A DNA stretch of 23,253 nucleotides from a virus, in IMG/VR virus record IMGVR_UViG_3300044949_000493, positions 1-23,253 of that record, one strand, 5' to 3'. The notes beneath the pieces are model-generated. The model was not told the origin of the DNA. It saw only the letters and a list, made by a program, of their open reading frames with translations, and ran no database searches. Below are positions 1,887 through 6,510 of the stretch, in pieces; positions within the stretch are counted from its first letter, which is position 1, and the number at the start of each line of letters is the position of its first letter. Position numbers and translations under genes: made by a program.

Positions 1887-1921
1887 CTCTCTCGGCTCTC
1901 TCCTCGGCGAGAGAGGGTGTC
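1887..1921 (+). other. Inverted repeat with two competing left arms after dCMP deaminase (possible terminator)
   Basis: GAGAGAG (1909-1915) can pair with either of two CTCTCTC copies, at 1887-1893 or 1896-1902. The nearer copy gives a 7-bp stem with a CTCGGC loop. The farther copy can be extended by GAC (1882-1884) pairing with GTC (1919-1921). The structure lies between the deaminase stop and a new promoter, where a terminator would be expected, but no T-tract follows at once. It may be a 3'-end-stabilising or factor-dependent stop. Confidence 0.4.
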
Positions 1922-1957
1922 GTAAGTTATTGATTCTATTAGGGTTTTTACTATTGC
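1921..1957 (+). repeat. Promoter-upstream direct repeat, copy A
   Basis: This 37-bp block matches 2663-2699 with one mismatch (T1928 against C2670). It runs up to and into the -35 element of the promoter at 1954-1982. The downstream start region (CTTATGAAAT, then GCGAAAACAC) is also shared with copy B, while the spacer bases between diverge. Preservation of the block upstream of the -35 suggests a binding site for an activator or polymerase alpha subunit, or recent duplication of a whole promoter cassette. Confidence 0.9.
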
Positions 1958-1982
1958 CTTTTTCGGTTGTTTTTGCTATAAT
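1954..1982 (+). promoter_or_regulatory. Sigma70-type promoter, copy A, predicted leaderless start
   Basis: TTGCCT (1954-1959), a 17-bp spacer and a perfect TATAAT (1977-1982). Only six bases separate the -10 box from the ATG at 1989, so the usual start of transcription falls on the A of the start codon. No Shine-Dalgarno sequence is present. The same geometry is seen in copy B. Confidence 0.8.
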
Positions 1983-1988
1983 TCTCTT

Positions 1989-2258
1989 ATGAAATGCGAA
2001 AACACTGTGAAAATTGGTGACGTAGTCAAGAGCCTTGACTTCGTTGGCGTCAATGACTGCTACTATGTCGGTCTCGTTATGGGCGTCAGCAAGATGGATG
2101 GTACGTTCCGCGCCAAGACCATCAAGCGTGTGTGGCGCGGTGAGGTAGATTATAAGAAAATCTACAATGACTTCTTCGTCGCTCCGCTTCCTGGCAATCA
2201 TCTTCTGGATGATCTGGAAGAAAATATTCGCGACCCTCGCATTCAGGTGGTTGCCTAA
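1989..2258 (+). CDS. Unknown small protein with KOW/SH3-like beginning
   Basis: This 89-aa protein is not recognised. The segment IGDVVKSLDFVGVNDCYYVGLVMGV, then RAKTIKRVW, has the alternating pattern of a small beta-barrel (a flow of strands around turns), but no family can be named with confidence. The start is fixed by the promoter 6 bases upstream and is probably translated from a leaderless mRNA. Its first codons (MKCENT) match those of the gene at 2731 (MKYENT), which sits behind the second copy of the same promoter. The stop overlaps the next start (TAATG at 2256-2260), making it the first gene of a three-gene run to 2667. Confidence 0.75.
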   Translation: MKCENTVKIGDVVKSLDFVGVNDCYYVGLVMGVSKMDGTFRAKTIKRVWRGEVDYKKIYNDFFVAPLPGNHLLDDLEENIRDPRIQVVA

Positions 2259-2458
2259 TGAATATCAGCGAAGCAGTCGAGATTATTGAGCAGCAAGCCA
2301 AGCGAGATGGCGTTAGTGTTCTTGAACTTCTCGAGACCCTCGACAGGTATGGTGCTCTTTGGTATATCCAAGAAGCCAAGTTGGGCATTGAGTTCCTCAC
2401 CGCATTCAACATCTTCATGGATTCTGGTCGTAAAATGTTTGCAAAGGTGGAAGCGTAA
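2258..2458 (+). CDS. Unknown small helical protein
   Basis: This 66-aa protein is not recognised. It reads as mostly helical (EAVEIIEQQAKRDG, VLELLETLDRYG, EFLTAFNIFMDSGRKMF) with no membrane segment and no Cys. The ATG overlaps the preceding stop as TAATG, and its own stop overlaps the next ATG the same way, so its translation is probably coupled to both neighbours. It shares the phrase EAKLGIEF/EAKLNWRN with the next gene, a hint of distant paralogy that is too short to press. Confidence 0.7.
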   Translation: MNISEAVEIIEQQAKRDGVSVLELLETLDRYGALWYIQEAKLGIEFLTAFNIFMDSGRKMFAKVEA

Positions 2459-2667
2459 TGACAATTCCCTACTATGAAATGTTCTCCGACGAAGGCAACG
2501 CTGTAGTCCATCGCGATATCGTGTTGTTCGCTCGCGAAGCCAAGTTGAATTGGAGAAATGTTCAGGCTATGCTGAACGATCTCAGTCAGATTGAGAAATA
2601 TAGCGAAGCGTCTGATACCGCAGTTCGCGAGGCAGTTTACGCTGCTCTTTTTACGGAGGTTGCGTAA
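2458..2667 (+). CDS. Unknown small protein
   Basis: This 69-aa protein is not recognised. It is acidic and probably helical after residue 20 (LFAREAKLNWRNVQAMLNDL, then SQIEKYSEASDTAVREAVYA). The start is set by a TAATG overlap with the gene before. Its stop (TAA at 2665-2667) lies inside the second copy of the repeated promoter-upstream block, so this copy partly overlaps coding sequence. Confidence 0.7.
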   Translation: MTIPYYEMFSDEGNAVVHRDIVLFAREAKLNWRNVQAMLNDLSQIEKYSEASDTAVREAVYAALFTEVA

Positions 2668-2699
2668 GTCATTGATTCTATTAGGGTTTTTACTATTGC
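2663..2699 (+). repeat. Promoter-upstream direct repeat, copy B
   Basis: Matches 1921-1957 at 36 of 37 positions. The first bases overlap the stop codon of the gene ending at 2667. It carries the -35 element of the promoter at 2696-2724. Together with copy A it brackets the three-gene run 1989-2667. Confidence 0.9.
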
Positions 2700-2724
2700 G
2701 TTTTTTCGCTCTGTAGGCTATAAT
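2696..2724 (+). promoter_or_regulatory. Sigma70-type promoter, copy B, predicted leaderless start
   Basis: TTGCGT (2696-2701), a 17-bp spacer and TATAAT (2719-2724). The ATG at 2731 follows after six bases, as in copy A, with no Shine-Dalgarno sequence between. The spacer differs from copy A at many positions while both boxes and the distance to the ATG are kept, which suggests selection rather than simple recent copying. Confidence 0.8.
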
Positions 2725-2730
2725 ATTCTT

Positions 2731-2907
2731 ATGAAATACGAAAACACAGAAATGGATGCGCTCCTTCTTATCGCTGAAAAGGACAAGGAGATCGAGCGGC
2801 TGCGCGCGGTGCTAAACAAACTTGAATACTATAGCGATGGCATCACCCTTCGGCTATACCCTACTGAATCTGAAGTGGAAGTTGCGCTGAGGGATCCTAA
2901 TGTCTAA
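2731..2907 (+). CDS. Unknown 58-aa protein behind promoter copy B
   Basis: The frame opens with MKYENTEMDALLLIAEKD, continues as a charged helix (KEIERLRAVLNKLEYY) and ends at TAA 2905-2907. The middle (residues 12-32) has a heptad-like spacing that could be a short coiled coil; similar coiled-coil peptides are common in phage accessory regions. The first codons match those of the gene at 1989. The start is set by the promoter 6 bases upstream. The end overlaps the next ATG by 8 bases. Confidence 0.65.
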   Translation: MKYENTEMDALLLIAEKDKEIERLRAVLNKLEYYSDGITLRLYPTESEVEVALRDPNV

Positions 2908-4925: not shown

Positions 4926-5252
4926 ATGACTATTAATACAATCAAACGTCTTGGTAACAAGCGAATTAATAATCTTGAGTTACGATGGACTAATTGTCCA
5001 GTCAGCGAAGGATACTATGAGATTGTTTGCTGGCAAGGTGAAGCAGATAAAGAGTATTGCTACAGTCTTGCCATGTGGTACAAAGACAGCGAAGGCTGGA
5101 ATCTCAGATTTGTTGGCAATCGTCCGTTTGACTCGTGGAAAGTCGATCGTCATTTGTTCTGGCAACTTGCGAAATATGGCGACACCGTTGCCAATGCTGA
5201 GTTTGCATTAGAACAAAAAATGGATGATTACAAGAATCACATTTACTCTTGA
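4926..5252 (+). CDS. Conserved phage protein of unknown function, 108 aa
   Basis: The protein contains LELRWTNCPVSEGYYEIVCW, YCYSLAMWYKDSEGWNLRFV and FWQLAKYGDTVANAEFALEQ. It resembles a conserved uncharacterised family of tailed-phage proteins, rich in Trp and Tyr, probably a small mixed alpha/beta fold. The start at ATG 4926 is chosen because AAAAGG (4916-4921) lies just upstream; an ATG further up the same frame (4887) would overlap the previous gene by 38 bases. Confidence 0.75.
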   Translation: MTINTIKRLGNKRINNLELRWTNCPVSEGYYEIVCWQGEADKEYCYSLAMWYKDSEGWNLRFVGNRPFDSWKVDRHLFWQLAKYGDTVANAEFALEQKMDDYKNHIYS

Positions 5253-5270
5253 CGATTGCTATAGTATAAT
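5242..5270 (+). promoter_or_regulatory. Sigma70-type promoter, predicted leaderless start
   Basis: TTTACT (5242-5247), a 17-bp spacer and TATAAT (5265-5270). The ATG at 5277 follows after six bases, the same distance as in the two repeated promoters upstream. The TTTACT-17-TATAAT form recurs at 16456-16484. No Shine-Dalgarno sequence precedes the ATG. Confidence 0.65.
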
Positions 5271-5276
5271 AATGGT

Positions 5277-5861
5277 ATGAATATGTTTATCAAAACTCCT
5301 GAAGACGGTTTTCATTTTAGCAGTGATGGAATTGCTATTATTGAGAAACAATATGGCGCCAAGTACATGGGCTATTGGACAATCCTACGGAAGTCTGGTT
5401 GGTCAGACACACCTGTTGATGTTTTCTATCAACCGAATGCCGATGCGAGCAAAGGTCATTCAAACTACTTTGGAATGTTTCGTCCCTACAAAGGACAAGT
5501 AATGATCACTGATGCTGCAAGTGCATTCAGCGAACCGATCACTGGTTTATTGACTGATGATGGTGAGGTGATTGTCAGTCGCTATCGTCATGATTGTGTT
5601 GTCAAAGGATCATACATGATTGATGGTGGTCGTGATTATTTGCGAACCAGTGGTAATGCCGATAGTGCGCTGGTGAAAATTACTGTTGTGAATGGTGAAT
5701 TTGTTTTCGAGGAATACAAGTCACAATCACAGGATCAACCGATTGGTGAGGCGTTGCGCGAGGTGTTGACTATTGACGCCAAAAACCAAAATGTCGGTTT
5801 GTTTGTTGAGCCTCCCAATAAGAAACTTGAAGTAGTGTCGAACCAGGAGCAACCGAAATGA
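5277..5861 (+). CDS. Conserved phage protein of unknown function, 194 aa
   Basis: Contains SDGIAIIEKQYGAKYMGYWT near the N-terminus and DAASAFSEPITGLLTDDGEV mid-protein; similar segments occur in uncharacterised proteins of many tailed phages. The sequence to about residue 150 looks like a beta-rich globular domain, then a hydrophilic tail to the end. It is probably translated from a leaderless transcript (promoter 5242-5270), although a second in-frame ATG at 5283 could also be used. It ends in an ATGA overlap with the next gene. Confidence 0.75.
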   Translation: MNMFIKTPEDGFHFSSDGIAIIEKQYGAKYMGYWTILRKSGWSDTPVDVFYQPNADASKGHSNYFGMFRPYKGQVMITDAASAFSEPITGLLTDDGEVIVSRYRHDCVVKGSYMIDGGRDYLRTSGNADSALVKITVVNGEFVFEEYKSQSQDQPIGEALREVLTIDAKNQNVGLFVEPPNKKLEVVSNQEQPK

Positions 5862-6250
5862 CAACTTTACGAGAAGCCGCACAGCAGGCGTTGGAGGCGC
5901 TACAGGCTTATGGTAGCCACGCCCCAAACTGTGATTATCTTGTGTTGCTGACTTCACTGCCTCCGCAACGCAAACCGTGTTCGTGTGGGCTTGCTGCCAA
6001 CATCACTGCTCTCCGCGCCGCGCTGGCAGAGCCAAACCACGACTACGAGCGTGGGTTCGTTGGTGGCATGAGTGAGCAAGTACGGCGCGACGTAGAAAGG
6101 AACGTAATGGCATCGCTTGACCGCTTCTACGCTATTGCTGTAGCCGCCGAGCGTGAGGCGTGTGCGAAGGTGTGTGAGGAAATTCGCTTTCCAGACAGTT
6201 ACACAGCCATACGTTGCGCCGCCGCGATTCGGGCGAGGGGTGAGACATGA
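5858..6250 (+). CDS. G+C-rich accessory protein, paralogue 1, 130 aa
   Basis: Begins MTTLREAAQQALEALQAYG, has a Cys-rich turn (KPCSCG), then ITALRAALAE, and ends with AAEREACAKVCEE and CAAAIRARGE. This architecture of alternating Ala/Arg/Glu helices is familiar from uncharacterised accessory proteins of Burkholderiales and other proteobacterial phages. Its base use stands out: 6121-6180 is about 62% G+C by direct count, against about 37% at 6661-6720. It shares a perfect 39-bp repeat and a second near-identical block with the next gene, so the C-terminal modules are duplicated. The start overlaps the previous stop (ATGA). Confidence 0.75.
   Translation: MTTLREAAQQALEALQAYGSHAPNCDYLVLLTSLPPQRKPCSCGLAANITALRAALAEPNHDYERGFVGGMSEQVRRDVERNVMASLDRFYAIAVAAEREACAKVCEEIRFPDSYTAIRCAAAIRARGET
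6143..6181 (+). repeat. 39-bp direct repeat, copy 1
   Basis: Identical to 6358-6396. It encodes AAEREACAKVCEE in the same reading phase in both genes. A second shared block, 6215-6243 against 6463-6491 (27 of 29 identical), encodes the RARGE end of both proteins. Confidence 0.95.
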
Positions 6251-6510
6251 CCCGCGACGACATTGAACGCATGGCAAAAGAGGCAGGTGCTATGGAATGG
6301 GGCGAAAGCGTTGTGCCAGCAATGATGGATATAGAAAAGTTCGCTGCCCTCGTTGCCGCCGCCGAGCGTGAGGCGTGTGCGAAGGTGTGTGAGGAACATG
6401 GAGACAAATGGGCAGACGGTAGTGACGAATGGCGTAACGGTCAGGCAACGGCTTCTTATTACTGCGCCATCGCGATTCGGGCGAGGGGTGAACAGGAGCA
6501 GCCACGATGA
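6247..6510 (+). CDS. G+C-rich accessory protein, paralogue 2, 87 aa
   Basis: Begins MTRDDIERMAKEAGAMEW, then carries AAEREACAKVCEEHGDKW and ends IAIRARGEQEQPR. The second half aligns with the C-terminal part of the preceding gene at DNA level (39-bp perfect repeat plus a 29-bp block with two differences). The N-terminal half differs, so this is a module duplication, not a whole-gene copy. It starts in an ATGA overlap with paralogue 1. Two Cys six residues apart (ACAKVCEE) could bind metal but are unproven. Confidence 0.75.
   Translation: MTRDDIERMAKEAGAMEWGESVVPAMMDIEKFAALVAAAEREACAKVCEEHGDKWADGSDEWRNGQATASYYCAIAIRARGEQEQPR
6358..6396 (+). repeat. 39-bp direct repeat, copy 2
   Basis: Identical to 6143-6181 and offset by 215 bp. 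A perfect repeat this close is a likely site for recombination that would delete or multiply the module. Confidence 0.95.

Follow-up and report, generated by a model that had tools for sequence, protein, structure and literature searches.

Two promoter copies in an uncultured T4-like phage point to a dispersed family with an IHF-like upstream element and first genes mostly predicted to be leaderless

We analyzed a 23,253-base viral record, referred to here as the window, which carries a T4-type gene set encoding RegA, dUTPase, Hsp20, dCMP deaminase, DNA polymerase, UvsX and a DnaB-like helicase. RegA (3-275) is partial, its N-terminus being cut off. The DNA polymerase is ~51% identical to cyanomyovirus enzymes, and UvsX shows up to 67% identity to that of Stenotrophomonas phage DLP_6. 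No relative of the DNA polymerase was found in GTDB genome contigs, which gives no host link, and photosystem genes, sought as a test for a cyanobacterial host, were absent from four phage records. Near the left end of the window, four short ORFs lie behind two copies of a conserved upstream block, each abutting a sigma-70-type promoter; a third promoter, further right, lacks the block (Table 1). The block was found neither in GTDB genome contigs nor in the phages Stenotrophomonas DLP_6 and IME-SM1, Xanthomonas X1, C48C1, and Vibrio 1.081.O. Elsewhere in the window, exact 39-nt direct repeats (6143-6181 and 6358-6396) and near-exact 29-nt direct repeats (6215-6243 and 6463-6491) mark a locally G+C-rich stretch in an otherwise A+T-richer phage.

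Table 1. Promoter elements and genes of the window considered in this study
Feature	Position	Strand	Details
Upstream block, copy A	1921-1957	+	Core TAAGTTATTGATT at 1923-1935, the IHF consensus WATCAANNNNTTR reversed
Sigma-70-type promoter A	1954-1982	+	-35 TTGCCT at 1954-1959, 17-bp spacer, -10 TATAAT at 1977-1982
ORF1 (89 aa, no known family)	1989-2258	+	Predicted leaderless; predicted +1 is the A of ATG 1989
ORF2 (66 aa)	2258-2458	+	Shine-Dalgarno led; downstream of ORF1 in the same run
ORF3 (69 aa, MTIPYYEM...)	2458-2667	+	Shine-Dalgarno led in the window
Upstream block, copy B	2663-2699	+	Core TAAGTCATTGATT at 2665-2677
Sigma-70-type promoter B	2696-2724	+	-35 TTGCGT at 2696-2701, 17-bp spacer, -10 TATAAT at 2719-2724
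ORF4 (58 aa)	2731-2907	+	Predicted leaderless; the cassette provides MKYENT, joined in frame to the body
Block-less promoter	5242-5270	+	TTTACT-17-TATAAT, 6 nt before ATG 5277
ORF (194 aa, phrog_12504)	5277-5861	+	Predicted leaderless without the block

The two blocks are identical at 36 of 37 positions and lie 742 bp apart, start to start; a 30-mer of the block, searched with up to three mismatches, had no match in 100 dinucleotide shuffles of the window. Copy A includes a T-tract (1945-1949), and the stop codon of ORF3 (TAA, 2665-2667) falls inside copy B. In both copies, six bases separate TATAAT from the ATG, and the first codons read ATGAAATRCGAAAACAC, with one difference in the first 17 coding bases. 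The spacers between the -35 and -10 boxes are identical at only 10 of 17 positions. We looked for a Shine-Dalgarno-like motif before the starts at 1989 and 2731 and found none; later genes of the same runs, starting at 2258, 2458, 2900 and 3043, have one. The initial annotation had described this layout of block, boxes, 17-bp spacer, six bases and first codons, together with the diverged inner spacer and starts devoid of a Shine-Dalgarno site, and the sequence agrees with it base for base. Its label of a duplicated cassette falls short: this is not a local duplication, the copies being part of a multi-copy family across a phage lineage.

An exact 28-mer of the window block had no match in viral contigs, but degenerate versions did. 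All 69 homologues of ORF1 in viral contigs keep the block, a -10-like box and an ATG six (rarely seven) bases further on, and a Shine-Dalgarno-like motif precedes the start in one of them. A 197-kb relative (G001) bears the block at 11 promoters and has two further elements in tandem, every one of them on the same strand; the ATG lies at 6 or 7 nt in seven of these 11 copies (chance ~6e-8). Over all loci we collected 83 distinct copies, in which the block has a general length of ~34 bp, the -35 to -10 spacer measures 16-17 bp and the -10 box stands 53-55 nt from the block start in every copy. The ATG follows the -10 box at 6 nt in 64 copies, at 7 nt in 12 and at 10 nt in one (G001 64567), and is absent in six. 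A second scan of viral contigs, directed at the block and independent of any gene, yielded 89 distinct copies; in 62 of these the ATG is 6 nt away, in 7 it is 7 nt away, and 14 carry ATA at +1. The ATG therefore lies 6-7 nt past the -10 box in 76/83 and 69/89 copies, respectively (78-92%), although these counts overstate independence, since the copies are related by descent. The ORFs behind the promoters sort into about a dozen groups with no relation to one another, so the spacing is not explained by all of them descending from one gene. These comparisons suggest that the window copies belong to a dispersed sigma-70 promoter family of an uncultured T4-like phage lineage. We found no account of such a cassette in the open-access literature searched.

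Conservation within the block peaks at YAANNNNTTGATW, which corresponds to the published IHF consensus, WATCAANNNNTTR (PMC7581858), reversed, that is, read on the other strand. Among the eight fixed IHF columns, seven show no variation across the 83 copies and the eighth holds in 81; every copy has T or C in the Y column, and variation is found at each of the four N columns. Conservation is higher in the fixed columns than in the remaining block (p = 3e-5). Furthermore, 65 of 67 distinct 35-mers contain a perfect match to the consensus; of 20,000 dinucleotide shuffles of the block, just 36 did. On the match to its consensus, IHF is the best-fitting candidate for a protein that would act here, and we put the chances that it binds the element at about even. 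No IHF or HU gene was found in the phage records. Other known sites were compared with the element. A MotA box of a T4 middle promoter would centre at -30, and the promoters here have a -35-like hexamer 17 bp from the -10 box, the wrong spacing for such a box. An FNR-like site, TTGATNNNNATCAA, is present in its left half only.

A diverged relative (G003) holds 25 such cores, on both strands, against ~4 expected. Core arrays, in tandem at 25 bp and inverted, lie upstream of leaderless-type promoters in this relative (L089-L092; 62546-62573, 57098-57136, 44369-44579 and 30006-30068). A dyad, CTCCTT...AAGGAG, accompanies some G003 copies and is not kept in others. In an IHF site, an A+T-rich tract would be expected on the side of the core that faces away from TTR; copies of the main family have a T-tract at ~10 bp from their core, and several G003 copies lack it.

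Another regulator, phage-encoded or a non-IHF host protein, might occupy the block in tandem, as activator or repressor, with the leaderless cassette otherwise unchanged; we regard this as a tentative but real competitor. Core elements upstream of promoters in G003 and G001 stand in tandem 25-28 bp apart, some of them inverted. IHF wraps ~35 bp, and sites at this distance are tight for such a protein. The offsets between the element and the -10 box in G003, 53-54 or 42-43 (the latter read by eye), are one helical turn apart, as would fit a protein touching RNA polymerase, and across the 83 copies bases outside the IHF core are conserved beyond what IHF requires. Such a regulator is harder to reconcile with a pattern in which precisely the IHF consensus columns are the most invariant and the N columns vary, and a lineage-specific phage factor is argued against by the occurrence of the element in phages of other types.

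A looser search found the element in many other viral contigs. Once contigs bearing the ORF1 signature had been removed, 12 of 83 elements had a strong sigma-70 promoter within 100 nt, compared with 25 of 830 random places, and 38 of 83 had a second core nearby, compared with 60 of 830. In an unrelated phage type, the 34-bp block sits ~30 bp further upstream of another promoter, and in three related copies of an unrelated phage it does not lie at the distance from the -10 box that the family keeps. A site common to unrelated phages suggests a host protein. Additionally, TAACCCATTGATTTTAAAGGA elements occur beside tRNA-like sequence in three contigs (L283, L313 and L372) and are possibly attachment-site IHF elements of other phages; a search for tRNA-adjacent elements in phages and plasmids returned matches mostly to the tRNA itself.

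A further reading takes the block as nothing more than an A+T-rich UP element, recognized by the alpha C-terminal domain of RNA polymerase, its likeness to an IHF site being due to chance. The block is indeed A+T-rich and abuts the -35 box, and T4 early promoters are of the UP/-35/TGn/-10 kind (PMC2988021). However, TTGAT is invariant or nearly so over the 83 copies, unlike in a UP element, and the block stands further upstream of the promoter in the other phage type. We therefore consider this explanation unlikely.

Whatever binds the block, leaderless transcription at the predicted 5' ends is well supported by the comparison of copies. Were the ATG spacing a coincidence, with transcription starting elsewhere upstream and ordinary leaders throughout, one would have to set aside its conservation over about a dozen unrelated ORF groups, and the near absence of Shine-Dalgarno-like motifs at ORF1 starts. 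The few copies with the ATG at 10 nt or with a true leader fit such a reading, which we hold to be improbable. Copies that lack the ATG mostly have ATA at the same position, followed by a Shine-Dalgarno site and a start codon further on, and behind one copy (G001 73948) lie 25 clustered tRNA genes. Both kinds are as expected if the promoter fixes +1 at that A. The initial annotation had proposed leaderless starts, had asked whether the block in related phages always precedes an ATG by a -10 box and six bases, and had held that a block away from gene starts would speak against its reading. Leaderless starts are supported by the spacing, and this arrangement, with six or rarely seven bases, is found in every ORF1 homologue, but not in every copy: about 14 of 89 stand before ordinary leaders with a Shine-Dalgarno site, one stands before the tRNA cluster, and in an unrelated phage the block lies further upstream of another promoter. 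What does not stand is the tie between the block and leaderlessness.

Some of the exceptional copies have features of their own. Two in G001 (65156 and 191104) place an 8-codon ORF, MINDKVKV and MVNEWSLM respectively, at the predicted 5' end; these ORFs run up to or into the start of the following gene and are possible leaderless uORFs. Three leadered copies (G001 90980, L099 4276 and L265 4689) have in common a 5' leader that starts with a small G+C-rich hairpin-like ATAGGGT...CCCCCC and stands before a Shine-Dalgarno gene.

The third promoter of the window has the same spacing without the block, which shows that block and leaderlessness are separable; its TATAAT-N6-ATG arrangement (5265/5277) is kept in several, but not all, homologues of that gene. 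The block belongs to the promoter, probably as an IHF-type site, and not to leaderlessness. That it is instead a terminator or RNA hairpin of the upstream operon is very improbable: a T-tract follows the core, and the block lies at the 3' ends of the genes before it, whose stop codon is in some cases the block's TAA, but it folds no better than shuffled sequences (z 0.21 and -0.95) and the T-tract is absent from several G003 copies.

The start codon itself appears to travel with the cassette. In the window and five other loci, the gene represented by ORF3 has a native M-x-x-PYYEM start behind a Shine-Dalgarno site; in L006/L165/L166 and G001, it is cassette-led and begins MKIENTPYYEM. Furthermore, the body of ORF4 is 98.6% identical over 73 nt to one contig (window 2809-2881, L073 8-80) and 93.6% identical over 94 nt to another (window 2788-2881, L072 5001-5094), both belonging to another phage type with 53-56% G+C; in L072 the related gene has a different, longer N-terminus. 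This near-identity may be read as a sign of recent capture of a gene fragment behind the cassette. The start swap of the PYYEM gene and the ORF4 fusion indicate that a start codon and the first codons can come from the cassette itself. In sum, architecture, conservation, variety of gene contexts and start-codon swap can all be read directly from the aligned sequences. Additionally, the A content from +4 to +18 is 0.505 at cassette-led starts and 0.387 at the Shine-Dalgarno-led ORFs of G001 (p = 7e-4), in a comparison of 14 cassette-led starts, some from related cassettes. This A-richness may aid leaderless initiation, or merely reflect the shared descent of the cassette.

We consider it likely that the whole is best explained by a dispersed sigma-70 promoter family with an IHF-like upstream element, a +1 fixed at an A and mostly leaderless first genes. 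In such a promoter, the upstream element would occupy roughly -66 to -36, followed by the -35 box, the 16-17-bp spacer and the -10 box, and host sigma-70 polymerase would start at the A ~7 nt after the -10 box. A host DNA-bending protein, IHF or a DNABII relative, would most likely bind the element and raise promoter strength in early infection, the polymerase being helped by an IHF-type bend that lies directly before the -35 box. We infer that the 5' ends are leaderless, that IHF binds, that it activates the promoter and does not repress it, and that the promoter acts early. In most copies, the +1 A would be the A of the ATG, so that the first gene of the unit would be read from a leaderless mRNA by 70S ribosomes starting at the 5' AUG without a Shine-Dalgarno site, a mechanism described for leaderless mRNA (PMC9031893); later genes on the same RNA would use their Shine-Dalgarno sites. 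When it moves, the cassette would take along its start codon and the few codons that follow, joining them in frame to the bodies of unrelated genes. Since RegA is encoded, it is possible that leaderless genes escape it. A more far-reaching proposal, which we advance as speculative, is a mobile promoter and start-codon module that is IHF-activated, carries its own AUG and first codons and gives a captured sequence a leaderless, Shine-Dalgarno-independent start, possibly exempt from RegA-type translational control. Equally conjectural is that such a module would move before or into gene bodies of a lytic phage lineage, including fragments from unrelated phages.

Lambda pL and Mu Pe are IHF-stimulated phage early promoters. 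Like them, the promoters described here are phage sigma-70 promoters with an IHF site, in this case predicted, upstream of the -35 box; unlike them, one cassette is present in many copies in the genome of a T4-like phage, keeps the distance between element and -10 box constant and usually has a predicted leaderless start. The leaderless lambda cI mRNA (PMC9031893) shares the 5'-end AUG, predicted here, the missing Shine-Dalgarno site and the expected 70S initiation. However, cI is a single gene, whereas here a whole promoter family in one lineage is involved and the start codon travels in the cassette. T4 early promoters (PMC2988021) are likewise read by the host polymerase, carry conserved sequence ahead of the -35 box and occur in many copies per genome; those of the present lineage differ in having a specific conserved upstream element with an IHF-like core and a start codon usually at +1. 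In E. coli, mRNAs with a 5'-terminal AUG followed by a Shine-Dalgarno gene have been described (PMC4965119). The two G001 copies with 8-codon ORFs at +1 resemble these, but arise from a repeated cassette, and their translation is putative. The portable multi-copy cassette newly combines leaderless mRNAs with IHF-type phage promoters, each of them known already.

If this reading is correct, the phage would make systematic use of leaderless starts and of sites for host architectural proteins, which would then be more than isolated curiosities. The cassette would offer a route to new phage genes, with promoter, start codon and first codons ready-made. Moreover, the question of why leaderless starts are kept would become testable, as escape from Shine-Dalgarno-directed or RegA-type control, and the cassette would provide a reliable signature for start annotation in these uncultured phages.
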